A DNA stretch of 64,000 nt. Origin: Muribaculaceae bacterium (lineage in GTDB: Bacteria > Bacillota > Clostridia > Lachnospirales > Lachnospiraceae). Position 1 is the first letter of the stretch. Every line of letters begins with the position of its first letter. A program made the position numbers and the translations under genes. Below the pieces are notes generated by a model. The model did not search any database. It saw only the letters and a program-made list of their open reading frames with translations, and was not told where the DNA came from. The stretch spans positions 369,764 to 433,763 of the forward strand of contig JAMPCA010000001.1 of NCBI GenBank assembly GCA_023666425.1, written 5' to 3'. Positions 13,933 to 58,826 of this stretch are shown one piece after another.

Positions 13933-15570
13933 TTAGCCTGTAATATTGATAATCTCCTTAAGTGTACCATGCTTAGTCAAAGCTTTTATAATTTTCCAGC
14001 CTTCATAACTATGTTTCAAATTCTCCGTAACTGGTGTAAAACCTAAATCCATGTACACCTTACAAGCCAGCCATGTATTTGTCTGTGTAGGAATTTTAGC
14101 GCGCACATACCCCAATGCATTCATTGCCCGAAGAACATGCGTTATCAATGGTTTTGACAGTCCGTTTCCCTGATATTCCCGCTTAACCGCCACCCAGTGA
14201 AGCCAGCCATCCCCAGATGTATCACGCCCATAAATATCATAGAATGCGGTAGCTGTAGCTATTTTCTTACCTTCATCAGTTTCGATAAAAAACATTCTGT
14301 CTGGAAGCTCATCCAGATTTGCTGCATAATAACGATTCCATGCTTCTAATCCCTGCTCATAGCTTACAAATTCTTTGGCAGACATTTCGATATCAATCCA
14401 TGCATCTCTGTCGTTGTCAGTATATGAAACGAAACGGTAACCTTTTGGAAGTTCATATTGTAGCACTTCAGTAATATTACTTTCCAGCAAAAGTTCATAA
14501 TAGCATATTCTCTCATCGTGATTATCATATTTGTCAGCCCTGATCCCGGGCAAACGGGAATTTAAGGCTTCCTTCATTTCTTTTTCAATATCCCGAATAT
14601 ACTTTATCCTCTCGACCGTGTTTCGTACCTCAGATATTCCCATCATTTTTTCTGCTTCATCAATACATGCTCCAAGCGCTCTTTGAATATTATACTCTAA
14701 CCATTCCAGCCAGGTATATGCAAGCCCAAATACAGCACTGTATGCCCGAAAACAATTATCATACGCCTCCAGATAACCGTCAAAGAAAGCAGCCATCTTT
14801 TCAATGTCCATATTGCAGGTTATAATTCCTGACCATTGAAGCGCCAGTTGAAGTGCATGGGAGACCGGATTGCCGTAGCCGAGGCATTCTAAATCTATTA
14901 CCCATGGATTCCCGTTATCCCAAATAATGTTTTTGGGATCCATATCCTCGTTAGATACACACATGAGATCCGGCAGAGATGTTCTTGCCTTATTCAATTC
15001 CTTCTCGGCATAGATTAAAAGCTTCTCATTTTCAGCCAAAAGAGTTGCAATCCCGCTTTTTTCTTCGTTCGCTTTATGGATATAGCCGTGCCAATTGATT
15101 TTACTTAATTCAGGCTCTTTATGGGAAACATTCTTAGGACTGATTGCATGAATCCTTCCAAGAATATTTCCGGCTATATGACACTGGGTGTTTGAAATAT
15201 TATTCCAGTCAGTGATATGTCCATCCTGCCAGTGGAAAATGTAAAAATAGTGTCCATCTACAGTTTGCAATTTTTTACCGAGAACTGTCAGAGCGGGCAC
15301 GATAGGAATATTCTCTTTTTCCAAAAGACATTCTATTTTCTCAGCCCTGTCGAAATTATCAAACGAACCTTCTCTTCCCATTACTTTAGGATTAAGATGT
15401 TTAACGGCATATATTCCGGATGTTGTTGTTACGCGGTACATTCTATGCATGAAACCGCCAGATACTGGTTCAATTGGAAAAATAACAGCTCCAAACCCAC
15501 ATTTTGTCATCAGGTCTGCTATTAAGTCGTCTATTGTATAATCTTTCAATATTTTTTCCCCGCCTTGCAT
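13933..15570 (-). CDS. APH-family phosphotransferase fused to GNAT acetyltransferase
   Basis: About 545 residues. The first roughly 310 form an APH/choline-kinase-like fold: VSGGFMHRMYRVTTTSGIYAVKHLN is the N-lobe with its Lys, NEDMDPKNIIW is the catalytic loop (Brenner-like, Asp kept, His replaced) and WVIDLECLGYGNP is the DFG-equivalent. Residues from about 385 form a GNAT domain with the acetyl-CoA loop VKREYQGNGLSK and a late VYMDLGFTPV. Order is phosphotransferase then acetyltransferase, opposite to AAC(6')-APH(2''). The substrate is unknown. Three starts are possible: ATG 15609, ATG 15570, or a TTG near 15552 behind GGCGGGG. AT-rich and probably acquired. Confidence 0.72.
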   Translation of the reverse strand: MQGGEKILKDYTIDDLIADLMTKCGFGAVIFPIEPVSGGFMHRMYRVTTTSGIYAVKHLNPKVMGREGSFDNFDRAEKIECLLEKENIPIVPALTVLGKKLQTVDGHYFYIFHWQDGHITDWNNISNTQCHIAGNILGRIHAISPKNVSHKEPELSKINWHGYIHKANEEKSGIATLLAENEKLLIYAEKELNKARTSLPDLMCVSNEDMDPKNIIWDNGNPWVIDLECLGYGNPVSHALQLALQWSGIITCNMDIEKMAAFFDGYLEAYDNCFRAYSAVFGLAYTWLEWLEYNIQRALGACIDEAEKMMGISEVRNTVERIKYIRDIEKEMKEALNSRLPGIRADKYDNHDERICYYELLLESNITEVLQYELPKGYRFVSYTDNDRDAWIDIEMSAKEFVSYEQGLEAWNRYYAANLDELPDRMFFIETDEGKKIATATAFYDIYGRDTSGDGWLHWVAVKREYQGNGLSKPLITHVLRAMNALGYVRAKIPTQTNTWLACKVYMDLGFTPVTENLKHSYEGWKIIKALTKHGTLKEIINITG

Positions 15571-15618
15571 GCAAAATTGTATCCGAAAATTTCCACCTGA
15601 GTATATCATATGTTTCTA

Positions 15619-15647
15619 TTGTTTTCAACGCATAATTATACTATAAT
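15619..15647 (+). promoter_or_regulatory. Promoter of the antitoxin gene
   Basis: TTGTTT and TATAAT are spaced by 17 bases. Initiation would fall near 15654, directly ahead of the ribosome site AAAGGTG of the antitoxin gene. The divergent APH-GNAT gene must share this short AT-rich interval. Confidence 0.6.
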
Positions 15648-15673
15648 TGTGCCAAAGAAAGGTGTGAAGAATT

Positions 15674-15931
15674 ATGCCACTTATTATGCCGATCAAGGAA
15701 TTACGGAATACAAACGAAATTTCCAATATTGCACACAAGGAGCAGGAGCCTATTTTTATTACCAAAAACGGATATAGTGACCTGGTTGTAATGAGTAGCG
15801 AATTGTATGATAAATTCGCAAAGATGAACCGCATTGACCAGGCTATTTTTGAATCCGAGCAGGAAATGGAAAACGGAGCTAAAGCAGTCGAGGCAGAGAT
15901 AGTTTTTGCAGAATTGGAGAGAAAGCATTGA
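15674..15931 (+). CDS. Phd/YefM-family antitoxin
   Basis: 85-residue type II antitoxin-like protein. The N-terminal half (MPIKELRNTNEISNIA, then EPIFITKNGYSDLVVMSSELYD) is the Phd/YefM DNA-binding fold. The C-terminal acidic helix (QEMENGAKAVEAEIVFAEL) is the usual toxin-wrapping tail. It has its own promoter. No complete toxin follows; only a short in-frame stretch resembling a RelE/ParE C-terminus is present before a terminator. It may now act as an orphan antitoxin or regulator. Confidence 0.78.
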   Translation: MPLIMPIKELRNTNEISNIAHKEQEPIFITKNGYSDLVVMSSELYDKFAKMNRIDQAIFESEQEMENGAKAVEAEIVFAELERKH

Positions 15932-15932
15932 T

Positions 15933-15989
15933 GAACCGCACAAAACGGTTTATGTGGTAACGATACAGTATCAGGGAAGAAATCAATAA
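15933..15989 (+). pseudogene. Remnant of RelE/ParE-type toxin C-terminus
   Basis: Directly after the antitoxin stop, 18 codons read EPHKTVYVVTIQYQGRNQ and then TAA. A hydrophobic strand followed by a short basic GRN/GRR end is how many RelE/ParE toxins finish. The rest of the toxin (about 80 residues) is absent, so a deletion between antitoxin stop and toxin tail is inferred. There is no start codon in this frame. The match is to a general pattern, not a named protein. Confidence 0.45.
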
Positions 15990-15991
15990 GA

Positions 15992-16030
15992 TAAGCGCCA
16001 AATGACAGGGTAGATCATTGGGCGCTTTCT
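15992..16030 (+). terminator. Terminator after the antitoxin/toxin remnant
   Basis: AAGCGCC and AATGA pair with TCATT and GGGCGCTT around a loop CAGGGTAGA. TTCTT follows. Its position directly after the remnant stop suggests it was the original terminator of a complete toxin-antitoxin operon. Confidence 0.65.
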
Positions 16031-16155
16031 TCAATAAATCCCAATTGTGATTTGATACTTTTAAGGAAAACAAAATTACATAAAACATTATAAATCAGGC
16101 TCCTGTTTTGCCAACATACAAGTTCTCATAAAGAGTAATTCATCATACTTTTCTA

Positions 16156-16184
16156 TTGACTTTTATGTTCGGCAAATGTAGAAT
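16156..16184 (+). promoter_or_regulatory. Promoter of the blaI-blaR1-like operon
   Basis: TTGACT and TAGAAT are separated by 17 bases. The -10 lies inside the first of two operator-like repeats, a placement that would let a bound repressor block RNA polymerase. Confidence 0.6.
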
Positions 16185-16216
16185 ATAATCAGATATTCGG
16201 CAAATGCAGAACATAA
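16165..16216. promoter_or_regulatory. Two direct operator repeats for the BlaI-type repressor
   Basis: ATGTTCGGCAAATGTAGAA (16165 onward) and ATATTCGGCAAATGCAGAA (16193 onward) are 28-base-spaced near-identical repeats. Each is an imperfect dyad TTCGGCA-AATG-TRGAA, comparable in form to the TACA-NN-TGTA dyads bound by BlaI/MecI. They cover the -10 and initiation region of the operon encoding a BlaI-family protein, so autoregulation is likely. Confidence 0.6.
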
Positions 16217-16238
16217 GAACATGTGAGGAGGGAAAGAG

Positions 16239-16607
16239 ATGAGGTACAAAACACTGCCAAATTCGGAACTGGAGCTGATGATGATTCTATGGAAAATGAA
16301 CCGCGCTATGACACGGACGGAAATCGAAGAGCTTCTGCCCCAAAAGAACCACTGGTCGAAAACGACGGTTCTTTCTTTTCTGGAGAGGCTGGAGGAAAAA
16401 GGCTTTGTGCGCGTGGAAAAGGAAGGGCGCAGCAATTGCTATATTCCCTTAGTAAAGGAAGAGGATTATTTAAAGCAGGAGAGCGGTTCAATCTTAAAGC
16501 GGCTGTATGGGAGTTCGGTGAAGAAATTTGTGGCGGCTCTGTATGATGGAGACGGGCTTTCGAAGGAGCAGATCGACGAGCTTAAGGATTATCTGGATCA
16601 GCTGTAG
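16239..16607 (+). CDS. BlaI/MecI-family transcriptional repressor
   Basis: 122-residue winged-helix repressor: LPNSELELMMILWKMNRAMTRTEIEE, then WSKTTVLSFLERLEEKGFVRVEK, is the characteristic DNA-binding domain. The rest is the C-terminal dimerisation helix pair (FVAALYDGDGLSKEQIDEL). GAGGAGGGAAAGAG precedes the start. It is followed 15 bases later by a BlaR1/M56-type sensor protease. In such pairs the protease responds to a signal and causes repressor cleavage. No beta-lactamase gene is close, so the controlled trait is probably another envelope or stress response. Confidence 0.9.
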   Translation: MRYKTLPNSELELMMILWKMNRAMTRTEIEELLPQKNHWSKTTVLSFLERLEEKGFVRVEKEGRSNCYIPLVKEEDYLKQESGSILKRLYGSSVKKFVAALYDGDGLSKEQIDELKDYLDQL

Positions 16608-16622
16608 GGAAAGGAGGCACAT

Positions 16623-19211
16623 ATGGAAAAACTGTTTTTGGAGGCAGTCTGGGTATCACTGGTCTGTGGTTTGGGGATTGTTCTGGTGTTTGCGGTGTCG
16701 CCTTTGCTTCGGAAGAGGAATACGGTGTTTTGGCGGTATTGTCTGTGGATGCTGTTTGCGGTGCGGCTGGTTCTGCCGTTTAACCTTTCGCTTCCCGGGA
16801 GGGCAGTTGTGCTTTCCTTTCCGGTCTGGGAGGCGGCAAAAGAGGCGGAGACAAGAGTTTTGCCAGATGACTGGCTGGGAAATGGTTATGGAGAGGACAG
16901 GGGAGCAGATTTCGGGAAGGGAGAGCGCGGAAGAGAAGAAAATATCTCAATGGCTGATTTTTTAGGAGAAACGACGGATGTAAAAAACGAAAACGGCAGA
17001 ATGGAACAGGAGGAAAACAAGGCGGCGATACCTGTGGAGGAAAACAGTGCAGCGGGAAAGGCGGACAATCAAAATGACGTAGTGAAGAATATGAAAGCCG
17101 TTACCACAGACCGCGTAGTTGAATGGGCAGCCGCCGTATGGGCGGCCGCTGTAATTGTTCTTTTGGTCTGGCAGCTCGTCTGCTATGCGGTTTTTTGCCG
17201 GAAAATAAAAAGGACAAGGGTGTTTTTGGCGCTTAAAGAAAATCTTCCGGTTTACACTTCCAGCGCCGTTTCATCCCCCATGCTGGCAGGCATTTGCAGA
17301 CCGCAGATCCTGCTTCCGGATTCTTTTTGCACGCAGTGTGAACAAGAGCAGCTGGACTTTATTTTGGAGCATGAATATACGCACTACAAAAGAAAAGATC
17401 TTTTGGTAAAGATGCTGCTGAGTCTGGCCTGGACAATCCACTGGTTCAATCCGCTGGTGTTTTGGATGATGCGGCAGGCGGCACAGGACATGGAGCTTTT
17501 ATGCGACAGCCGGGTCACGAAGGGTTTTTCCAGAGAAGAAAAGAGATTGTATGGAGAGACGCTGCTTGGCTGTGCGTCGGCGGAAAAAAGACGGACGGCA
17601 ATTTTTTGTACCAGCGAGTTTTCAAAGGATGCGCGGTCATTAAAGGTGCGGTTTGCAAATCTTTTTTCGCAGGAAGGGAAAAGGAAGGGGATTTTTGCTG
17701 CCGTGCTGGGTGGAATCCTTTTGGCGGTGATAAGTCTGTTTGCCGCATTTGGCACATCGGAACGGGATACGGGAAAACCGGCTGCTGTATCAGGAAAGCC
17801 GGGCGCAGGAGCGGATTATGGAGAAGATACACAGAAGGAAGCACTGGCGGATATGGCAGTTTCAGAAAATGTGCTGGAGGAGAAGCGTTCCCTGCTTTTG
17901 GGATTTCCGGCAGGGCTGATAGCAGAGGCAGAATACGGCGCCGTATTTCCAAGGCTGGTTTACGCTTCGGATCAACGGGCGGTGCTTTACGATTACTGGG
18001 GGCTTCTGGTTTATGATATCGGAAACCAGAGGATAGAGCAGATTCTGGATTTAAAGGCTGTGGATTTAAACCATATGCAGGGAGAGCGGGTGACGCATGT
18101 CGAGGTATCGGCGGACGGCGCGCAGATTTTACTTTACAATGAGCCGGATACAAAAGAGAGGTTTGTCTATTACATAGATGATAAGAGGCTGGAATATTCG
18201 GATCTGGATTCCTTTGCAGAAAACCATTATGACGGGCTTCTTGAGCGGGAAGGGCAGGCATATGCCATTACGGAAAGTGGTGCAGAGGTTTCTTTGTCTG
18301 CAGATTCCCTGCTGACAGCGGACGGGGACACTTATCATCCGGAGGATGTGCAGGGGCTTTCCCTGATTGTGAGCGGTCCGGACTGGGGAGAGTGCGGGGT
18401 CTGCCCGCTTTTCATGGAATATTTTGAAGATCAGCAGGAAGTGCTTTTTCCGCATCTGGACTGGAGCGATTTTGGCAGGGTCACGGGGAAAAAATTTCTC
18501 CATGAGGACGAGGACGGCTGGCGCTATTATCTGGAGGAGGACGAGGGAAGGGAGAGTGGGCTCTGGGAAATCGGGGCGCCTTTCGAGCCGTTGCTTTTGA
18601 CCCGGTATCAGGACGGGCAGAGGCAGGTTTTGGAGGATTTGATCTATCAGGAGGCGTATCAGGAATGTCCGGTGCTGTTTGTGGCGGGGCGGATTGTCTA
18701 CAAGGCAGCAAAAACAGCGGACGTCGTCGCCATAAAATCTCCCTCGCTGGTCAGCATTTCTGCAGATGGCAGTGACAGGAGGATTGCGGACGATATCCCT
18801 TACGGCGTATTTGACAATCTTTGTGAAGACGGCGGCTGGCTCTATTATCTGGGCTGGAGCAATGACGGCCGGCTGCCCAGACCATTGTGCCGCATATCGC
18901 CGGATTTCAGCAGCGGCTCGCAGCCTGCGGGGGAGCTGCCGGGGTATTTGTGCGGCGTCATGGATGGGTATGTCTACTATCTTGCCGGAACGCAGAAGGA
19001 GCCAGGAATCTGGAAGAAAAACCTCGCAACCGGGGAAGAACAGATTTATGACAAATGGGGGCTGGCAGCGGAAGATATTCTGTTCTTTCGAAGCAGAGAG
19101 CAGACATTTTTGTCCGGAACCCTTCACGATACAGAAACGCCGGGATGCAGGATTTTGTTTCAGACGGATTATGACAAAGGAATCTGCAGCAATCAAGTGG
19201 AATTTCGGTAA
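16623..19211 (+). CDS. M56-family (BlaR1/MecR1-type) membrane metalloprotease with long C-terminal sensor
   Basis: 862 residues. The N-terminal 380 form the M56 core: several transmembrane segments, zinc motif HEYTH in LEHEYTHYKRKDLL, and LLCDSRVTKG, all typical of BlaR1 family anti-repressors. A membrane helix (about 358-378, GIFAAVLGGILLAVISLFAAF) ends the protease part. The remaining roughly 480 extracellular residues are not a penicillin-binding domain. They look like repeated beta strands with YY, DG and GxW patterns (WLYYLGWSNDGRL, YVYYLAGTQKEPG), resembling DUF5050-type propellers. It should sense an unknown extracellular cue and inactivate the adjacent repressor. Confidence 0.85.
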   Translation: MEKLFLEAVWVSLVCGLGIVLVFAVSPLLRKRNTVFWRYCLWMLFAVRLVLPFNLSLPGRAVVLSFPVWEAAKEAETRVLPDDWLGNGYGEDRGADFGKGERGREENISMADFLGETTDVKNENGRMEQEENKAAIPVEENSAAGKADNQNDVVKNMKAVTTDRVVEWAAAVWAAAVIVLLVWQLVCYAVFCRKIKRTRVFLALKENLPVYTSSAVSSPMLAGICRPQILLPDSFCTQCEQEQLDFILEHEYTHYKRKDLLVKMLLSLAWTIHWFNPLVFWMMRQAAQDMELLCDSRVTKGFSREEKRLYGETLLGCASAEKRRTAIFCTSEFSKDARSLKVRFANLFSQEGKRKGIFAAVLGGILLAVISLFAAFGTSERDTGKPAAVSGKPGAGADYGEDTQKEALADMAVSENVLEEKRSLLLGFPAGLIAEAEYGAVFPRLVYASDQRAVLYDYWGLLVYDIGNQRIEQILDLKAVDLNHMQGERVTHVEVSADGAQILLYNEPDTKERFVYYIDDKRLEYSDLDSFAENHYDGLLEREGQAYAITESGAEVSLSADSLLTADGDTYHPEDVQGLSLIVSGPDWGECGVCPLFMEYFEDQQEVLFPHLDWSDFGRVTGKKFLHEDEDGWRYYLEEDEGRESGLWEIGAPFEPLLLTRYQDGQRQVLEDLIYQEAYQECPVLFVAGRIVYKAAKTADVVAIKSPSLVSISADGSDRRIADDIPYGVFDNLCEDGGWLYYLGWSNDGRLPRPLCRISPDFSSGSQPAGELPGYLCGVMDGYVYYLAGTQKEPGIWKKNLATGEEQIYDKWGLAAEDILFFRSREQTFLSGTLHDTETPGCRILFQTDYDKGICSNQVEFR

Positions 19212-41820: not shown

Positions 41821-42558
41821 ATGGGACAAAAACGGACAAAGGAAAGGAGGAGAGCGGCGGCCTATGGGATCATTCTTGCGCTGGCCTTTATTCTGGGAAG
41901 GGTGGCGGCGCATGGGTTTTCCATAGAGTGGGAAGCGGTGATACGGCTGGCGGATGCTAAGAAGGATGAGGAAAAAGAGGTGGAGAAGGGCAGGGAACTG
42001 CCGAAGCAGATTGCAATCACCTTTGATGACGGGCCGAATCCCCTTTACACGGAAAAGCTGCTGGAGGGACTAAAGAAACGTGAAGTAAAAGCCACGTTTT
42101 TTCTTTTGGGCTCCGAGGTGGAGGAGTATCCAAAGCTGGTGGAAAAAATCTATGACGACGGTCATCTGATCGGCGTTCACTCCTACCGGCATGTGAATTT
42201 CGGGGAAATCGGGGACGAGGCGGCCATGAAGCAGATCGACGCCGCAAGGGAGGCCATCTACTCTGTGACCGGAGAGTACGCGGGCTTTATCCGGCCGCCC
42301 TACGGCTGCTGGAAGGATTCGTTAAATGACAAGGTTCCCATGATCGAGGTGCTGTGGGACGTGGATCCTCTGGACTGGGCCACGGCGGACGCCGACACGG
42401 TGGCACAGCGGATATTAAAGGCCGTGGATAAGGGAGGGACGATCATTCTCCTCCACGATGCTTCCCAGTCCTCGGTGCAGGCGGCTTTTACCGTGATCGA
42501 TGCGCTGACGGAGCAGGGATATGAATTCGTGACGGTGGAGGAGCTGCTGTTAGAATAG
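41821..42558 (+). CDS. Membrane-anchored polysaccharide deacetylase (CE4)
   Basis: 245 residues. One N-terminal membrane helix (AAAYGIILALAFILGRVAA) is followed by a NodB/CE4 domain with all motifs: TFDDGP, HSYRH, RPPYG, DPLDW and LLHD. Such proteins remove N-acetyl groups from peptidoglycan or other glycans at the cell surface. It stands alone between the chemoreceptor promoter and an AT-rich cassette. The start follows AGGTGCGCCA. The exact substrate cannot be read from sequence. Confidence 0.88.
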   Translation: MGQKRTKERRRAAAYGIILALAFILGRVAAHGFSIEWEAVIRLADAKKDEEKEVEKGRELPKQIAITFDDGPNPLYTEKLLEGLKKREVKATFFLLGSEVEEYPKLVEKIYDDGHLIGVHSYRHVNFGEIGDEAAMKQIDAAREAIYSVTGEYAGFIRPPYGCWKDSLNDKVPMIEVLWDVDPLDWATADADTVAQRILKAVDKGGTIILLHDASQSSVQAAFTVIDALTEQGYEFVTVEELLLE

Positions 42559-42673
42559 AGATGATTGAGAGTAGACAAAATGGGAATAGATATGATAACA
42601 TATAACAATACATTGGGAAGAATGTTTGGGGGAAAATACTTTAACAGCCAGAATAAAGGGAGCAAGGGAAACT

Positions 42674-43141
42674 ATGCCACAAATGGGAGAAGTTGATTTT
42701 TTGGAGACAATGGAAAGAATGTACAAAGACTCCAGAATATTGTTTCAAAAAGGGGAATACTATAATTGCTGTTATTTATGCGGCTATATTATGGAGTGTG
42801 CCTTAAAGTATATTTTACAAAGGTATGGAAAAAAGCAGGACGGACAGCCTTACTCGGTGAGCGACTTAAAGGAATTTGGTCATAATACCAAAGAATTAAA
42901 CAGCCAGTTAGAGAACTGGATTTCTATGACTGGCGGTATTTCGCCCGCATACCGATTAGACTGCAGAAAGAAATGTCCTTACATTTTTGTTGGGCCGGAA
43001 GGATATCCGCACTGGAGTCCGGCATATCGGTATGGTGACCATATAAAATGGCATGAAAAGGAATGGTGTGAGAGATATATCGAGGAGAGCAGATATATTT
43101 TTCAATTTGTGGCGAATATTGTAATCGGAGGTGCCGGATGA
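42674..43141 (+). CDS. HEPN-like small protein of a two-gene cassette
   Basis: 155 residues, all-helical in character. The segment FQKGEYYNCCYLCGYIMECALKY (shown in part: GYIMECALKYIL) followed by GHNTKEL, and a C-terminal helix RYIEESRYIFQFVANIV, are the pattern of HEPN-fold proteins (GYxxExxLK, then GH/N). The catalytic RxxxxH of RNase-type HEPN toxins is not obvious. RYGDHIKWH is the only nearby basic-His cluster, so catalysis is doubtful. The ATG at 42674 is preceded by AGGGAAACT; a TTG at 42626 is less likely. Its stop overlaps the next gene (ATGA), so the two are translationally coupled. AT-rich. Confidence 0.6.
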   Translation: MPQMGEVDFLETMERMYKDSRILFQKGEYYNCCYLCGYIMECALKYILQRYGKKQDGQPYSVSDLKEFGHNTKELNSQLENWISMTGGISPAYRLDCRKKCPYIFVGPEGYPHWSPAYRYGDHIKWHEKEWCERYIEESRYIFQFVANIVIGGAG

Positions 43142-45837
43142 TACATAATAATGGAGTTTTGGACAAAACCGTTGAAACAGCTATGAAATTTGCGGAAGAA
43201 TATACCGGTTTGGAGCTGTATATTGTCCAAAATGTGTATGGAAAAATTATTGTATATATGGATACTTCCCGGAAGGAGCTGGTCGCTCAACTGGAACAGG
43301 AATTGAGAGCTGCGATTGATGTATGGCTGAATTCCTGTGAATCAATCGAAGAAAATTATTTTGCGAAAGAGGAAATTGAAATATGGAAGCAGGAAAGCAC
43401 CCCTGTTAGGGAACGGGTATGGATATTTGAAAAATATATCACCAATGTATACTGGGATGCAAAAAGAAGAAAGAAAGAAAAGTGTGCTTTGTCCAGCAAG
43501 CTGGTGAGCTTCTATTCTTTTAAGGGAGGCGTTGGCAGGACAACGACAATGATGATGTCTGCGATCGGAGCCGCGAGAAGAGGAAAAAGGGTTGCTATAC
43601 TGGACTTTGATCTGGAAGCCCCGGGAGTGTCCAGTTTCTTTCCGGAAGATGCTTTGTCACAATATGGAATATTAGATTTTTTGGTGGAGAGTAATGTATA
43701 TCAGGAAGAAATCAATATTGATGAATATTTGTATCCTGTAGGCGAATACTGCAATGTCAATCAATATGGAGGTGAGATTTACATCCTGCCTGCGGTAGGG
43801 ACGGCGGTGAAAAATGACATTGAAGTCTACCGTAAAAACTTAATGCGGTTCGACATGGATGTTCCGGCATATGAAGAAGAAAAGACGCCTATTGATATAT
43901 TATTGTCGAAGATAGACTTATTTTTGAAACCGGATTATATTTTCATAGATACACGCTCAGGTATTCACCAGATTGGCGGAATTACACTAACCAGATATTC
44001 GGATCTTGCATTATTGTTTTTCTATGGAAGCAGGCAAAATATCGAAGGAATGCAGATGACTTTGCCTATTCTAAAGAGTAGCGGTACTCCATTTTTATTA
44101 ATTAACAGCAAGGTTCCGGTCAACGAATCCCTGGCGCAGATAGAAAAGAAAATGTATATTGATGGCGCCTACCATGCGCTGAGAAACTGTGATAAAGGAT
44201 ATCAGGCGGAAGAAATCCTTGTGGAGGATGAAACGGCGGAGCATTATCCGATTCATATAACCTATAATGCAGCTCTGGAGGTGATTGCCTCAACAGAGCA
44301 GCTTCTAAAAGGATACGAGGAACAGGAAACAGAGTATGGCAGGCTTGTGAATGTGATTGAGGATACACTTCAAAATGATCCTGCCGACGCAACTGTGACA
44401 GTGGGTACTGACAACGCTAAGAAAATTGCGTCAGCATTCTCTAAAATTATGGGGGGACTGGAGACAGCGGCAGCAGAAGATGAATTTGCAACTGAAAAGG
44501 ACTTGCAGAACAATTTTTATCCGTTAAAAAGTTACACGTTTATTTTCGACCAGAGGAAGTTTTTGGTTCTCGGTCAAAAAGGTGTAGGAAAGACTGCGCT
44601 GTTTAGTGCATTAAAGAATAATGAATATGCGAAAGCGCTTGCCAAATATTTGAATGTAACCACAGAACAGTACGAACATACAGAATGGATTGCAGGTACT
44701 TCGCAGGCGACGAATTATGTTGACGAATTTAGCTGCCTAAAAAATGAAGAACAGATCAGAGCATTTCTATATTACGAAACATTAAGAATTTTACTGAAGA
44801 ACGACAGTAATCTAAGCTGTATTATTTCTGATAGTCCTGTGGGAAGTATATTTAATGATGTGTCTGCAGCAAAGCTTTACAGTGAATGGTCGGGAGAAAC
44901 AGCATACCAGATGAAAAAAGTGCTGGAGAAGGTTGATCAATATTATAAGGAGAAGACCACAGTAGTTACCATTATTTATGATGCATTAGACCGGATTGTG
45001 GCGCCTAAGAAACGTGGAGAATTTGTTAGTGCTTTAATTGATATGTGGTATAAGAATGAGACGGCTATGCAGAATGTCCGGAGCAGAATTTTTCTGCGCA
45101 AAGATATTTATGACAGAGAGGTGAATGTCCCGGATAAGGTTAAATTAAAAAATTATTCAGTCACTATAGCGTGGGATTACGACCAGTTGTTTGCAATGAT
45201 CTGGAAACGAGCCATTAGTATATCGGATGATGTGAAAAGCTTATATGAAAAAATTGCTTTAAAGCAAATCAGTAAAGTAGATGGATTGGGATATATTCCA
45301 AATGTGGATGAGGTCGACAATAGAAGGATGCTGTCTGCGCTTATTGGTGTTAAGATGGGAAGTGGCAATAAGGCATCTACTTATAACTGGTTTAAAAACA
45401 GGCTTTCTGATACGCAGGGTGTCATTGTGCCCAGAAGTATGATTGATATTTTTGCAAAGGCCGCAGATAAAGAGACAGGGTCGCAAAAAGAAGGGAATCA
45501 GACAATAGGGAAGGGTATTATTCGGCCAAGGTGCTTTGAGGATGTACTTCCAGAGGTGTCAGAGAAAAGGGTAATAGATTTAAAAGAGGAATTTCAGGAA
45601 TATGCCGCTTTTTTAGATAGTTTGAAGGATACTGTTCGACGCTCGCCGGTGGATGAAGGAATACTGCAGGATGCTTTGCGAAGATGTGATTTTTCAAATC
45701 CGATGGAGGAAATACTGAATTTAATTAATATTGGAATTTTAAGACGTTATCAGCTCAGGCTATCCGATCCTATTCGTTATCATTTTCCGGATATTTATCT
45801 TCGGGGACTTGGATTGCAAAGGTCTGGTATGCGGTGA
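43138..45837 (+). CDS. Dual-NTPase protein: KGGVGR-motif MinD/ParA-like module plus Sll1717-like P-loop module
   Basis: 899 residues. After a 115-residue N-terminal domain, a MinD/ParA-type module starts with the deviant Walker A FKGGVGRTT (129-136, the usual P-loop Lys replaced by Arg, signature Lys kept). It continues with ILDFDLEAPG (154-163), DTRSG (271-275) and LINSKVP. A second NTPase starts at GQKGVGKT (479-486) with Walker B IIYDALD (612-618) and a sensor-like FLRKDIYDR (652-660), in the style of Sll1717-family ATPases. A winged-helix-like end (ILNLINIGILRRYQLR) follows. Both modules are known separately in conflict systems; the fusion beside a HEPN-like gene is unusual. AT-rich and foreign-looking. 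Confidence 0.75.
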   Translation: MIHNNGVLDKTVETAMKFAEEYTGLELYIVQNVYGKIIVYMDTSRKELVAQLEQELRAAIDVWLNSCESIEENYFAKEEIEIWKQESTPVRERVWIFEKYITNVYWDAKRRKKEKCALSSKLVSFYSFKGGVGRTTTMMMSAIGAARRGKRVAILDFDLEAPGVSSFFPEDALSQYGILDFLVESNVYQEEINIDEYLYPVGEYCNVNQYGGEIYILPAVGTAVKNDIEVYRKNLMRFDMDVPAYEEEKTPIDILLSKIDLFLKPDYIFIDTRSGIHQIGGITLTRYSDLALLFFYGSRQNIEGMQMTLPILKSSGTPFLLINSKVPVNESLAQIEKKMYIDGAYHALRNCDKGYQAEEILVEDETAEHYPIHITYNAALEVIASTEQLLKGYEEQETEYGRLVNVIEDTLQNDPADATVTVGTDNAKKIASAFSKIMGGLETAAAEDEFATEKDLQNNFYPLKSYTFIFDQRKFLVLGQKGVGKTALFSALKNNEYAKALAKYLNVTTEQYEHTEWIAGTSQATNYVDEFSCLKNEEQIRAFLYYETLRILLKNDSNLSCIISDSPVGSIFNDVSAAKLYSEWSGETAYQMKKVLEKVDQYYKEKTTVVTIIYDALDRIVAPKKRGEFVSALIDMWYKNETAMQNVRSRIFLRKDIYDREVNVPDKVKLKNYSVTIAWDYDQLFAMIWKRAISISDDVKSLYEKIALKQISKVDGLGYIPNVDEVDNRRMLSALIGVKMGSGNKASTYNWFKNRLSDTQGVIVPRSMIDIFAKAADKETGSQKEGNQTIGKGIIRPRCFEDVLPEVSEKRVIDLKEEFQEYAAFLDSLKDTVRRSPVDEGILQDALRRCDFSNPMEEILNLINIGILRRYQLRLSDPIRYHFPDIYLRGLGLQRSGMR

Positions 45838-45898
45838 AAATTTAGAGATGGACGAATTATTTAGATAATGATTTCAGAAAGGAACTTTGAGAGAGGAC

Positions 45899-46753
45899 AT
45901 GGACAGGAGACAGATTCATCAGGAATTTTTGACGGGGGAGCGGGCGCTTTTTGCGTCCAGTGGTCTGGAAATTTACGATACCATCTTCGACGACGGGGAA
46001 TCCCCCCTGAAGGAGAGCCGTGATATTGATTTGTACAACAGCATGTTCAAATGGAAATATCCGCTCTGGTACTGTAAAAATATCCGGGCATTCGACTGCA
46101 GCTGGTTTGAGATGGCGAGGGCGGGCGTGTGGTACTCGGACAATATAGAAATAAAAAATGCACTGATTGAGGCGCCGAAGAATTTCCGGCGCTGCGACGG
46201 ACTGACGCTGGAACATGTAAACTTTGCCAATGCGGAGGAGACGCTCTGGTACTGCAAAAATGTCAGAATGGACGAGGTGTTTGCAAAGGGAGACTACTTT
46301 GCGATGGGCAGCGGGAATATGGAGCTGGATCACTTTGAACTGGTGGGGAACTATTGCTTTGACGGGGTAAAAAACCTTACAATCCGCAACTCGAAGCTCA
46401 TGTCGAAGGACGCTTTCTGGAATACAGAGCATGTGCAGGTGTACGATTCCTTCATTTCCGGGGAATATCTGGGCTGGAACGCAAAGGATCTTTTACTGGA
46501 AAACTGTACGATTGAGAGCCTGCAGGGGCTTTGTTACATTGACAATCTGGTGATGAGAAACTGTAAGCTCATCCATACCACGCTTGCCTTTGAGTATTCT
46601 GCCGTGGACGCCGATATCAGCGGCAGGATTGACAGTGTCATAAATCCGAAGGGCGGCAGGATCACGGCGGATTCCATCGGAGAGCTGATTCTTGAGCGGA
46701 ACCGGATACAGCCGGAGCTTACAAAGATCGTGTGCAGGGAGAACGAAGGATAA
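45899..46753 (+). CDS. DUF3737 family beta-helix protein
   Basis: 284 residues with repeated short strands typical of a right-handed parallel beta-helix: FDDGESPLKESRDIDL, WKYPLWYCKNIRAFDCSWFEMARAGVWY, EAPKNFRRCDG, ETLWYCKNVRM. This is the DUF3737 pattern, a conserved family in gut Firmicutes with no known function. There is no signal peptide. Two starts are possible: ATG 45899 (chosen; MDRRQIHQEF) or a TTG at 45887 closer to AAAGGA. It ends the AT-rich cassette region and returns to the GC level of the main chromosome. Confidence 0.85.
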   Translation: MDRRQIHQEFLTGERALFASSGLEIYDTIFDDGESPLKESRDIDLYNSMFKWKYPLWYCKNIRAFDCSWFEMARAGVWYSDNIEIKNALIEAPKNFRRCDGLTLEHVNFANAEETLWYCKNVRMDEVFAKGDYFAMGSGNMELDHFELVGNYCFDGVKNLTIRNSKLMSKDAFWNTEHVQVYDSFISGEYLGWNAKDLLLENCTIESLQGLCYIDNLVMRNCKLIHTTLAFEYSAVDADISGRIDSVINPKGGRITADSIGELILERNRIQPELTKIVCRENEG

Positions 46754-53600: not shown

Positions 53601-53671
53601 GTTACGCTGTTTTGTAATTTTGCGAATAGAAAAGCCGGGAGGATTGTGCTAGAATAGAATAAAAAATAAAG

Positions 53672-53742
53672 AGCGGGTGATGGGAATCGAACCCACGTAT
53701 CCAGCTTGGAAGGCTGGTGTTCTACCATTGAACTACACCCGC
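53672..53742 (-). tRNA. tRNA-Gly (anticodon TCC)
   Basis: On the minus strand a 71-base cloverleaf starts GCGGGTGTAGTTCAATGG and ends CACCCGCT. The anticodon stem CCAGC/GCTGG encloses loop CTTCCAA, giving anticodon TCC. The T-arm has GTTCGATTC. CCA is not encoded. It lies 1 base downstream of tRNA-Phe on the same strand. Confidence 0.93.
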
Positions 53743-53743
53743 G

Positions 53744-53816
<73 letters not shown>

Positions 53817-54527: not shown

Positions 54528-54788
54528 ATGCCTAATATAAAACCAATTTCTGATTTGCGAAATTACACAGAAGTACTGAAGCAGGTAGATGCTTCAAACC
54601 GTGTGTATCTTACGCGCAATGGACATGGGGAATATGGTATTCTTACTATGTCAGAAATAGATGAACTTGACAGATGCAGGGCTGCTTATACACTTTTTTC
54701 CAAATTAAAGGAGGCAGAGGAACGTGCAGATAAGGAAGGCTGGATTTCTGCAGACGATTTGGAAAAAGAATTGGGGGTAGCAGATTGA
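54528..54788 (+). CDS. Phd/YefM-type antitoxin
   Basis: 86 residues. The N-terminal fold (PNIKPISDLRNYTEVLKQV, RVYLTRNGHGEYGILTMSEID) is Phd/YefM-like; the C-terminal part is a charged helix (KLKEAEERADKEGWISADDL). It overlaps the toxin start by 4 bases. It should bind and neutralise the toxin and repress the shared promoter. Confidence 0.85.
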   Translation: MPNIKPISDLRNYTEVLKQVDASNRVYLTRNGHGEYGILTMSEIDELDRCRAAYTLFSKLKEAEERADKEGWISADDLEKELGVAD

Positions 54789-55132
54789 AGAAACTGAAGT
54801 ACTCTCCGGATGCTCGTGAGAAGTTAAAGCAGATAAAACAGTATGTGACGCAGAAGTTTGGTGCTGACACAGCGGGTAAAGTCACTAAAGAAATGACAAA
54901 ATCCATTCGAGATTTACAGAAATTTGAGGAAAAAGGTATTTCTGTGGAAAGTGTTTTAGGTATTCCATGTGATTTCAGAATGTTATATGTTCAGCATAAT
55001 TATGTGTTTTATCAAATTGAAGTTGATGTTATAAAAATCACAGATATATACAATGAAAAAGAGGACTTTATGTGGAAGCTCTTTGGAATTAAAACTACTA
55101 CAGAAGAGGCAGAGAATTATTGGAAAGATTAG
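54785..55132 (+). CDS. RelE/ParE-family toxin
   Basis: 115 residues from a TTG start overlapping the antitoxin stop (TTGA). The fold pattern KLKYSPDAREKLKQIKQYV, GIPCDFRMLYVQHNYVFYQIE and VIKITDIYNEKEDFMWKLFG is RelE/ParE-like, the last part being the family's closing beta strand and tail. It is longer than usual at the C-terminus by about 20 residues. Whether it cleaves mRNA or targets gyrase cannot be told from sequence. Confidence 0.83.
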   Translation: MKKLKYSPDAREKLKQIKQYVTQKFGADTAGKVTKEMTKSIRDLQKFEEKGISVESVLGIPCDFRMLYVQHNYVFYQIEVDVIKITDIYNEKEDFMWKLFGIKTTTEEAENYWKD

Positions 55133-55490
55133 TGACAACATTTTGGCGACAGAAAATTAGCAGGCCATAATAAATGATGTAATTGAAGTGAAAAAGGGAG
55201 TGTATTTGCATAAAATTTAAACAAAAATAGTTAAGAGAAACAAAAACCACGCCAGGTTCGAGTAGTACGAGAGTGCATAATAGAGAAACTATGTTTGAAA
55301 TTGTGAATTCAGAAATAAATAGATATTCAGAATAAACGTCTTTTATGGATAATGTATTTTAATGATGCGGAAAGATTGTATTGTGATGTATATCCACCGT
55401 CGCATCCGGGTATGTTTTGGAAAAAGATGGAAGAATGAAATGAGGAGAGCAGACGGGACAGATAAAGCTGTGAATGGAGGAATGCCTAAA
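55133..55490. other. AT-rich gap without clear gene
   Basis: No intact gene, RNA gene or strong hairpin is seen. An open frame continuous with the NUDIX gene starts at 55362, but its first 43 codons are Arg/Lys-rich, show no family match and lack a ribosome site. They are treated as leader. Confidence 0.4.
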
Positions 55491-55919
55491 ATGACAGAGG
55501 TTAAATTTTATGAAAGTGTGGAGGATGAGCTGCTTCGATTTGCTGTGATCATATCCAAAACGCAGGATAAATACGTTTTTTGCAAGCATAAGGACAGAGA
55601 TACATGGGAAATTCCCGGAGGACACCGGGAGCAGGGAGAAAATATTACAGATACGGCAAAGCGGGAACTGTATGAAGAAACAGGTGCGCTGGAATTTGAT
55701 ATAACACCCATCTGTGTATATTCAGTTGTACGTCCGGATAATCTTGACGGCAGGGAGAGCTTTGGAATGCTGTTTTTTTCTGATATAAAAAGATTTGAAG
55801 CGGAGTTACATAGTGAGATTGAGAAAATTGCGATCATGTCAGATCTGCCAGAGCTGTGGACATATCCCGATATTCAGTCGCATTTGATGCAGGAGGCGAA
55901 GAAGCGGGGGTATTTATAA
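55491..55919 (+). CDS. NUDIX hydrolase
   Basis: 142 residues. The NUDIX box spans GGHREQGENITDTAKREL and YEETGAL, with WEIPGG ahead of it. This is the small 8-oxo-dGTP/other-nucleotide class. The ATG at 55491 has GGAGG 10 bases upstream; an ATG at 55482 is too close. It sits alone in an AT-rich stretch between two toxin-antitoxin modules. The substrate is not predictable. Confidence 0.85.
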   Translation: MTEVKFYESVEDELLRFAVIISKTQDKYVFCKHKDRDTWEIPGGHREQGENITDTAKRELYEETGALEFDITPICVYSVVRPDNLDGRESFGMLFFSDIKRFEAELHSEIEKIAIMSDLPELWTYPDIQSHLMQEAKKRGYL

Positions 55920-56103
55920 AATGAGAGAAAATTTAGCAACAATGAAATTATTTCTTCCACTCCTGCTGAGAAAGCTCTTGATACATGTATTTTGATGACT
56001 TGCCAACACTGAGAGCGTAGCAGAGGATATAACAGATAAAAGCGACTATTTTTAGTTGCACATTTTCTGAATAAATGTTATATATATATTGAGGAGAATT
56101 AGT

Positions 56104-56355
56104 GTGAGTAAAAAGGACAAATTGATTGATAGATTATTAAAAAAGCCTAAGGATTTTACTTTTGATGAGATGGAATCTTTACTACTATATTTTGGATATG
56201 AACTGAAACAAGGAGGAACTGGTTCAGGAGTTAAATTTATAAAGGACGGAAGTAATAAAGTAATAAACTTCCATAAGCCGCATCCGGAAGGAATATTAAA
56301 ACGGTATATTTTGGAGCAGGTTATAGAGAAATTAAGAAAGGACGGTTTGTTATGA
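56104..56355 (+). CDS. HicA-family toxin
   Basis: 83 residues from a GTG start behind GAGGAGAATTA. The dsRBD-like fold is visible: DFTFDEMESLLLYFGYEL, GGTGSGVKFI and INFHKPHPEGILKRYIL. In classical HicA the catalytic His lies at G-S-H; here that turn reads GSGVKF, so the active site may use the later HKPHP His residues, as in a divergent HicA subgroup. Its stop overlaps the hicB start (ATGA). Confidence 0.8.
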   Translation: MSKKDKLIDRLLKKPKDFTFDEMESLLLYFGYELKQGGTGSGVKFIKDGSNKVINFHKPHPEGILKRYILEQVIEKLRKDGLL

Positions 56356-56684
56356 GTAATTTATTGTCGTACAAAAATTATAATGGAACAGTGGAATATT
56401 CAAAAGAAGATAGCTGCCTTTTTGGAAAAGTGATTGGAATAAAGTCGTTATTGTCATATGAGGGAGATTCTGTCAAAGAATTGGAACAGGATTTTCAGAA
56501 TGTGATAAATGTGTACCTGGAGGACTGTAAGGAACGGAATGTGGAGCCGGAGCAGCCTTATAAGGGAACCTTTAATGTGAGAATTAGCCCGGAGTTGCAT
56601 CGGAGCATTGCGGTGTATGCGATTGAGCATGGGAAAAGTTTAAATGCGGTTGTTGAAGAAGCTATTGGAAATATGGTTGGGTAA
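56352..56684 (+). CDS. HicB-family antitoxin
   Basis: 110 residues with the HicB_lk layout: an N-terminal partial RNase-H-like fold (YNGTVEYSKEDSCLFGKVIG, YEGDSVKELEQDFQNVINVYLEDC) and a C-terminal ribbon-helix-helix (GTFNVRISPELHRSIAVYA, SLNAVVEEAI). It overlaps hicA by 4 bases. It should neutralise HicA and repress the pair. Confidence 0.88.
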   Translation: MSNLLSYKNYNGTVEYSKEDSCLFGKVIGIKSLLSYEGDSVKELEQDFQNVINVYLEDCKERNVEPEQPYKGTFNVRISPELHRSIAVYAIEHGKSLNAVVEEAIGNMVG

Positions 56685-58170: not shown

Positions 58171-58719
58171 TCACACCATTACCATATCCTGATAACTGCC
58201 GGACAAAAATTCCCTTATTCCCACATAGCAGATCCCGTTTTCATCTGTCCATGGCACGATGGCATCCTTTACTACTACAATCTTTTTAAAGGAATTATTT
58301 ATCTTAAGAAGCGAGGCCGTTTCCTGCTCTCTTTTTTCTGCGGAATCTACATTTAGTGCGGACTGTACATATATCTGGCTGTCACCGAGCTTTGCAATAA
58401 AATCAATCTCAAGCTGTGAACGGATATCCTTCCCCGCTTCACTTCTGTACCTGTATTCCACCACACCAACATCAACACTATAGCCTCTGATTACAAGCTC
58501 ATTGTATAGGATGTTTTCCATGATATGATTCTCCTCCTGCTCCAAAGGAAGAAGTAGGAGGTTATCCTCTTTTATTCCGTTTTCTATTAAATAATTTCTG
58601 TAAAGCTCAAACAACAGATAGGATTTTCCGCATCTGCGGAGTCCCGTAATAATCTTTATAAGCCCATTATCTTTCCGCGCTATTAACTGATTCAGATAAT
58701 AATCTCTTTTTACTTCCAT
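58171..58719 (-). pseudogene. AAA/DUF4143 ATPase gene with large internal in-frame deletion
   Basis: The first 60 residues match the AAA_14 N-terminus (KRDYYLNQLIARKDNGLIK, Walker A GLRRCGKSYLL), but the Walker B part and most of the middle are absent. From about residue 65 the sequence jumps to a DUF4143 C-terminus (HIMENILYNELVIRGYSVDVG, EIDFIAKLG, KKIVVVKDA). Family members are about 400 residues; this frame codes 182. The junction keeps the frame, so a shortened protein could still be made, but it should not hydrolyse ATP. The ATG at 58719 follows GGAGGGCTTT. Confidence 0.75.
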
Positions 58720-58826
58720 AAAGCCCTCCAAAAGATTTTTGCCGCATACGGCATTTTTCTTTTGAATACATTCTAATGCCTTTTTCTTATTAAATCAGGC
58801 CGCTGTTAAAAACATTCTCTCCCCAC

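Follow-up and report, generated by a model that had tools for sequence, protein, structure and literature searches.

A stretch of 64,000 nucleotides from contig JAMPCA010000001.1 of a gut bacterium placed in the Lachnospiraceae, referred to here as the window, carries two genes whose base composition differs from that of their surroundings. This raises the question of what the two genes form together and what they might do for the cell. The GC content of this cassette is 39.9%, against 54.3% in 16 kb of flank, and its genes overlap by ATGA, so the initial annotation was right to describe two coupled AT-rich genes. It had also proposed that they were inserted between two genes, which it named as a polysaccharide deacetylase on one side and DUF3737 on the other. 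Two genomes of the same genus support an insertion between unrelated genes, since in both of them the same flanks are adjacent and the cassette is absent. Four Lachnospiraceae loci with the cassette (73–81% protein identity) have the cassette, and only the cassette, in common with the window. The cassette genes are under purifying selection. Of 14 comparisons, five were saturated, and the nine for which dS could be estimated gave a dN/dS of 0.04–0.11; dS was below 1 only in the three comparisons against one locus (L014), with ratios of 0.05–0.11. The features of the cassette are collected in the table.

Table. Features of the cassette, with positions in the window
Feature	Position	Strand	Evidence
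Gene A, 155-aa HEPN-like protein, PDC-M28A; alternative upstream TTG start at 42626	42674..43141	+	ORF; PF05168 E 2.9e-6; PDC-M28A E 9.4e-11
Ex3K motif of A, E41–K45	42794..42808	+	E, K in 49/49 (profile alignment)
Insert histidine H70 of A, candidate alternative active-site residue	42881..42883	+	Motif count
RY motif of A, R119–Y120, expected start of Rx4-6H, H absent	43028..43033	+	R, Y in 48/48 (profile alignment)
ATGA start/stop overlap joining both genes	43138..43141	+	Sequence
Gene BC, 899 aa, PDC-M28B (aa 5–413) fused to PDC-M28C (aa 445–847)	43138..45837	+	E 2.5e-53, 2.4e-35
N-terminal domain of B, ~aa 1–115, diagnostic of the trio	43138..43482	+	In 49 KGGVGR proteins, 48 with A, 48 with C
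KGGVGR MinD/ParA-type NTPase domain, aa 121–308	43498..44061	+	NF047398 E 7.8e-46
Deviant Walker A of B, KGGVGR, aa 129–134, Arg for P-loop Lys	43522..43539	+	K129, R134 in 36/36
Sll1717-type, STAND/ORC-CDC6-like NTPase (C), aa 443–870	44464..45747	+	NF047389 E 1.1e-31
Walker A of C, GQKGVGKT, aa 479–486	44572..44595	+	G479, G482, G484, K485 in 35/35
Walker B of C, IIYDALD, aa 612–618	44971..44991	+	D615 in 35/35, D618 in 30/35

The identity of the cassette follows from the component profiles of PADLOC-DB 2.0.0. The small protein (A) matches PDC-M28A (PDLC04558). The first half of the large protein (B) matches PDC-M28B (PDLC04559) over profile positions 6–434 of 438, and the second half (C) matches PDC-M28C (PDLC04561) over positions 19–411 of 480. 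The gene order, A and then the fused BC, is the A-B-C order of PDC-M28. Because all three components match, the cassette can be assigned to a phage-defence candidate that is already listed, as a form with B and C fused; the assignment uses component profile matches and gene order. On these matches, it is a divergent member of PDC-M28, with the same components, and it differs in having B and C as one polypeptide. The earlier statement that the combination could not be matched to a named system is thus superseded. Relatives embedded in BREX-2 operons match the profiles far better (E 7.3e-132 for the B of L068; 2.2e-143 and 5.7e-167 for the B and C of L038). PDC labels are predictions, and they reportedly originate from a 2024 preprint by Payne et al. 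In a native-host study, two other PDCs were without activity. A literature search with thin coverage of subscription papers and preprints found no functional test of, or paper on, PDC-M28, KGGVGR or Sll1717 proteins.

Both NTPases that had been read in the large protein exceed curated cut-offs. The KGGVGR-motif ATPase family NF047398 is matched with 156.8 bits (cut-off 90) and the Sll1717 ATPase family NF047389 with 110.4 bits (cut-off 75); these are domain families whose names state no system or function. The motifs that had been pointed out, KGGVGRTT (aa 129–136), GQKGVGKT and IIYDALD, are present, and the key B and C residues are retained in homologues down to 16–17% identity. In B, the P-loop lysine of KGGxGK is arginine in all 36 proteins, while the first lysine is kept; the arginine is partly a matter of definition, as the KGGVGR family is named after it. 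When B was compared with solved structures, the matches were MinD/ParA-type chains. The same comparison gave no usable match for C, which looks like a complete STAND/ORC-CDC6-like NTPase. Among 25 C homologues, Pfam detected ORC-CDC6-like domains in nine (best E 9.7e-8), NACHT in five and nSTAND1 in two, and for the window C itself only P-loop matches below the cut-offs, with ATPase_2 as the best.

The linkage of the three components is near-obligate. With three atypical KGGVGR rows left aside, and in a sample biased to loci having B and C by the use of B or BC as the search query, A was found at the same locus in 48 of the 49 KGGVGR proteins with the N-terminal domain of B, and C likewise in 48. 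Neither A nor C accompanied any of the 12 KGGVGR proteins without this domain. The exceptions are an A-B pair without C (L043) and a locus without a detectable A (L046). The survey of homologues thus confirmed a conserved pairing and did not reveal mostly unpaired housekeeping genes. The strict linkage between A and the N-terminal domain of B predicts that this domain contains a docking site for A. The trios occur in Bacillota, Cyanobacteriota, Pseudomonadota and Actinomycetota. The window proteins belong to a close group with 69–83% identity, and homologues outside it have 14–39%. On both the B tree and the C tree, a single branch parts the fused proteins from the split trios and one change is enough, with 4 of 36 and 3 of 35 rows, respectively, uncounted for having no C, a partial C or no full B. 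A repeated fusion was considered and rejected, since four changes (B tree) or two (C tree) were obtained only when such rows were labelled as split. Owing to the fusion, B and C are expected to form a unit with a constant 1:1 ratio.

The nature of protein A is less straightforward. The window A matches the HEPN family PF05168 (27.9 bits; Pfam gathering cut-off 22) in a partial alignment of residues 26–70 with profile positions 5–49 of 117. At E ≤ 0.01, PF05168 was detected in 8 of 28 A members. Among ten divergent members scanned, it covered most of the protein in four and was not matched in five, and one gave a weak match to AbiV (PF18728, E 0.0013). The search of A against solved structures returned no usable match. 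The canonical RNase motif Rx4-6H is absent in the window A and occurs at the conserved arginine in only 5 of 47 homologues. Within the segment from the conserved lysine to RY, a motif H-x(3,4)-[LIVMF] is present in 46 of 47 homologues; in 2000 shuffles the mean was 33.9 (sd 2.9) and the maximum 45. This histidine does not form an aligned column: MAFFT places it in 21 of 34 sequences, and the profile alignment in fewer than 60%. Taken together, A appears to be PF05168-like, with a pattern of Ex3K, candidate insert histidine and RY resembling that of the AF0298/AbiV HEPNs, which are described as retaining R, having lost the H of Rx4-6H and carrying an alternative H in the helix 2–3 insert. A stays below the cut-off for AbiV proper (14.8 bits; TIGR04498 cut-off 27), for which the 2013 HEPN table lists no operon partner (PMC3710099). 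The Pfam match supports the HEPN-like assignment made in the initial annotation, whose proposal of a HEPN effector is weakened by the missing Rx4-6H. As A lacks this motif, the predicted effector role rests on a non-canonical site, and an RNase activity is uncertain.

The cassette has spread between genomes and replicons. Twelve trios are on plasmids: three inside BREX-2 operons, two further ones close to type III or type I restriction genes, and all nine outside BREX-2 without BREX annotation within 6 kb. Trios on viral contigs adjoin integrase, terminase and tape-measure genes. These surroundings agree with the link to conflict systems that had been suggested from the protein families, and a defence function of the cassette is likely.

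A mechanism can be outlined from these observations. We tentatively favour, at somewhat less than an even chance, a reading of the cassette as a B-C fused PDC-M28 module, a mobile and most likely anti-phage conflict system in which B and C gate A. C would be the likely sensor or assembly platform, and B, with its altered P-loop, the likely nucleotide-locked switch, whose N-terminal domain would hold A. Upon infection, C would change state and B would release or re-arrange A. A would act as the effector, probably on RNA via its AF0298/AbiV-type site, and the cell would be stopped.

Two other readings, both unlikely, assign different roles to the same proteins. One regards the cassette as a toxin-antitoxin-like dyad with an added sensor, in which A would be an RNase toxin and B its antitoxin, and which would maintain mobile elements rather than sense phage. 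Such a role was proposed for HEPN(MAE_18760)-ParA/Soj dyads, in which a small HEPN gene similarly stands with a ParA/Soj-type ATPase gene and a conflict role was predicted (Anantharaman et al. 2013, PMC3710099). Plasmid and viral locations, a HEPN gene that comes first and overlaps the next, and the A-B pair of L043 are in line with this. However, MAE_18760 is a different HEPN family, listed as retaining Rx4-6H, and the accessible part of that survey mentions no C component. Furthermore, a C with full NTPase motifs is present at 48 of the 49 loci, and BREX-2 embedding points to immunity. The second reading, of similarly low probability, takes the missing Rx4-6H (42 of 47 homologues) as the sign of a catalytically dead HEPN. 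As a sensor or adaptor, A would then bind nucleic acid or something produced by the invader, and B-C would be the output, for instance by oligomerising or by restricting DNA. The 2013 survey suggested that HEPN domains without any of the conserved polar residues are binding domains (PMC3710099). Against this, the invariant E, K and R and the recurrent histidine motif are unlike a pure binding domain, and neither Pfam nor NCBIfam detected a nuclease or any further kind of effector domain in the window B or C. A role as an accessory or regulator of BREX and of further systems, such as a partition-like or transcription-related switch, instead of an autonomous defence, is suggested by the BREX-2-embedded plasmid trios but is very improbable in view of the nine other plasmid trios and of the window, where the cassette is on its own and neither neighbour is named as a BREX gene.

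Returning to the gated-effector reading, a broader form of it is conceivable but rather doubtful: PDC-M28 may represent a distinct class of immune switch, in which a ParA/MinD-fold protein frozen by the Lys-to-Arg P-loop change common to the family and a STAND-type sensor gate an alternative-histidine HEPN RNase; the fused lineage would then show that both NTPases work together as one 1:1 unit. The P-loop arginine and the non-canonical HEPN site are both biochemically unusual and can be tested directly. With its two genes, the fused cassette is a compact representative of a widespread candidate, and it is simpler to clone and to assay than trios of three genes. A MinD/ParA-fold domain within a predicted conflict system is also found in the VMAP ternary systems, whose MinD/ParA-like effector domains are predicted to be inactive (Kaur et al. 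2020, PMC7159879); the accessible part of that account does not mention the HEPN-KGGVGR-Sll1717 trio.

Several smaller observations concern the locus and its relatives. As named in the initial annotation, the genes adjoining the cassette are neither defence genes nor BREX genes. The gap between them was considered as a defence hotspot, which is unsupported; in one genome (G010) it spans 11.6 kb, whose ORFs look by eye like sensor kinases and regulators. The cassette lies between copies of an 8-base direct repeat, TAGAGATG, which was rejected as evidence of a target-site duplication, because 608 of 2000 shuffles gave one as long or longer. Promoter and terminator scans of the cassette gave background level only. 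The BC protein had no match among 50,697 phage records, and the DNA of the Enterobacter and Pantoea cassettes had none among 20,395 records in which E. coli copies were sought. Around chromosomal trios, the commonest matches among the first 25 neighbouring families were mad3 and mad8, probably cross-matches of a scan without background control. Finally, the sister KGGVGR proteins (616–1096 aa) have the same NTPase core and differ from the trio in lacking the N-terminal domain of B, A and C; their partners are different, and on plasmids these include an MqsA-family gene (L067, L069).

The two-gene cassette very probably belongs to PDC-M28, a phage-defence candidate with the parts A, B and C that is listed in PADLOC-DB 2.0.0, and B and C are fused here. 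With PADLOC, the HEPN-like protein A matched PDC-M28A (E 9.4e-11), and the fusion protein BC matched PDC-M28B over residues 5–413 (E 2.5e-53) and PDC-M28C over residues 445–847 (E 2.4e-35). NCBIfam matches above cut-off assigned residues 121–308 to the KGGVGR ATPases and 443–870 to the Sll1717 ATPases. The initial annotation, which could name no system for this combination, was therefore wrong; what is new in the window is a divergent, fused member of an already known candidate. One full copy is present in the genome. The GC content of the cassette is 39.9% vs 54.3% over 16 kb of flank, and purifying selection is observed (dN/dS 0.04–0.11 in 9 of 14 comparisons, the other 5 being saturated).

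Coordinates of the cassette, its flanking genes and other features of the window
Feature	Position	Remarks
Partly AT-rich region	13936–19208	
Polysaccharide deacetylase	41821–42558	Flanks cassette; named in the initial annotation from sequence alone
Gene A	42674–43141	Overlaps BC by ATGA
Gene BC	43138–45837	Overlaps A by ATGA
DUF3737 gene	45887–46753	Flanks cassette on the other side; named likewise
tRNA-Gly/tRNA-Phe	53671–53816	
AT-rich region	54785–56684	37–40% GC
186-aa ORF	58174–58731	

The components are tightly linked. Among 49 KGGVGR proteins with the N-terminal domain of B, A was present in the same locus in 48 and C in 48; the exceptions were L046, without a detectable A, and L043, without C. 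By profile, 15 KGGVGR proteins were without this domain. Three were set aside (L058, a 238-aa fragment with A and C; the truncated L094, with C; the divergent L111, with A and C), and the other 12 had A in 0/12 and C in 0/12. These counts contain the near-copies L001/L014, L062/L066 and L089/L090, and the use of B or BC as the query biases the loci toward B and C, but not A. A small gene precedes each of the sister KGGVGR proteins of 616–640 aa without the domain (L067, 5489–7866; L069, 5461–7881; L093; L099; L102); by annotation it encodes an MqsA-family antitoxin in L067 and L069, and in the rest its product looks Cys-rich by eye. The small gene and the sister protein are a second KGGVGR pairing, different from the trio.

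A search of genome contigs found five loci at 73–97% identity, whose source records carry the names Blautia, Lachnotalea or Lachnospiraceae; every one has the fused form. Over 18.5 kb, L014 aligns collinearly with the window at 93.5%, and L015–L018 have the cassette alone in common with it; across the window and these five loci, the GC content of the cassette is 37–43% vs 44–57% in the flanks. M28B profile matches (E <= 1e-10) were found in 8/299 genomes of the family and 9/398 of the phylum, the window's own genome included in both. Of 31 plasmid records matched by tblastn, 15 were examined: 12 carried the trio (10 split, with B and C as separate genes; 2 fused), 1 had C only, and in 2 the KGGVGR protein had a different partner. 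In viral contigs, 26 loci were identified: 15 with A, full B and C, L111 with A and a divergent fused BC, L094 ending at a contig edge, and nine with other KGGVGR proteins. BC had zero matches among 50,697 phage records.

The fused form looks like a single lineage, since fused and split forms part on one branch in both trees (B, 36 rows, support 91/87; C, 35 rows, 99/100; 15 true fused vs 17 true split trios). The trees are unrooted, with some long branches, and are thus compatible with either fusion or splitting. The fused side also includes plasmid trios from Nostoc and Pantoea, and the split form occurs in G016, a genome of the window's own genus. The A-B locus L043 (5525–7206) groups with the fused L044 in the B tree (support 91/76), which suggests that its C part was lost.

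Active-site-like residues are conserved in all three parts. In C, Walker A, D615, R654, D656 and W679 are present in 35/35 and R766 in 34/34; R654 and R766 resemble sensor 1 and sensor 2. Pfam matches of C homologues to ORC-CDC6-like, NACHT and nSTAND families support a STAND/ORC-like NTPase. In B, K129, G130, G131, G133, R134, D156, D158, E160, P162, G163, D271, R273 and G275 are invariant (36/36); Arg replaces Lys in the P-loop of every member, partly because it defines the family. In the profile alignment of A, E and K of Ex3K are conserved in 49/49 and R and Y of RY in 48/48. An insert His motif occurs in 46/47 (shuffled mean 33.9, sd 2.9, maximum 45; 2000 shuffles), but this His is not a clean column (21/34 by MAFFT, <60% in the profile alignment) and any H in the insert shows little excess (47 observed vs 43.1 expected). 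PF05168 matches 8/28 members at E 0.01. Among ten homologues scanned singly, which partly overlap that set, five matched PF05168 (four over most of their length), one had only a weak AbiV match, and four had neither.

In the most economical reading, C would be the sensor, B the switch and A the effector; we infer the trigger, the interactions, A as an RNase and the abortive outcome. A conflict or defence function is probable, and A as a gated RNase effector is a tentative prediction, at somewhat under even chances. A toxin-antitoxin-like dyad, of the kind put forward in 2013 for a different HEPN family, would be a rival explanation. A might also be a dead-HEPN sensor; Rx4-6H at its conserved R is present in 5/47 only. 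A BREX accessory is a further rival: BREX-2 operons enclose 3/12 plasmid trios. In its available portion, a 2026 BREX survey (PMC12839542) does not mention the trio. PDCs originate in a guilt-by-embedding study (Payne et al. 2024, cited in PMC12988326), and two others assayed in their native host had no activity (PMC12409345). The DefensePredictor paper (PMC13092281) describes, in its accessible part, four HEPN systems, none with a KGGVGR partner, and the MinD/ParA-like domains that Kaur et al. 2020 (PMC7159879) predict to be inactive belong to other conflict systems.

Mobility is also observed. Two genomes of the window's genus, G005 (two copies) and G733, carry the deacetylase beside DUF3737, ~85–100 bases apart; these junctions are unoccupied cassette sites, and G756 has the cassette between these genes, as in the window. 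In G010, the gap measures 11.6 kb (L082, 2530–14026), and by eye its ORFs resemble sensor kinases and response regulators. Upstream of 5/12 plasmid trios lies a tyrosine recombinase or integrase gene, and 2/12 are near restriction genes of type III or type I. Neighbours of viral-contig trios include integrases, terminases, tape-measure and Q-like proteins (73/107 neighbour ORFs; near-copy L090 omitted). PADLOC scans of neighbour ORFs (100/125 and 73/107) gave a few restriction-modification and other defence matches among the first 25 families listed, and add little because they have no background control and are limited to that listing.

Elsewhere in the window, a ParE-like toxin ORF lies in the AT-rich region beyond the tRNA genes, together with genes for a NUDIX and a HicB-family protein. 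DNA similarity to L014 ends within tRNA-Gly at 53725; an element at a tRNA would fit, but L014 itself stops just 157 bases further on. The 186-aa ORF matches AAA_14 and the end part of PDC-S01 in PADLOC (309–408 of 412 in the best stretch, E 1.3e-34), and may be what is left of a second defence candidate. In the partly AT-rich region upstream of the cassette, a gene for a BlaI-like (Penicillinase_R) repressor adjoins a BlaR1/M56 peptidase gene; the region also encodes an APH-GNAT two-domain protein.
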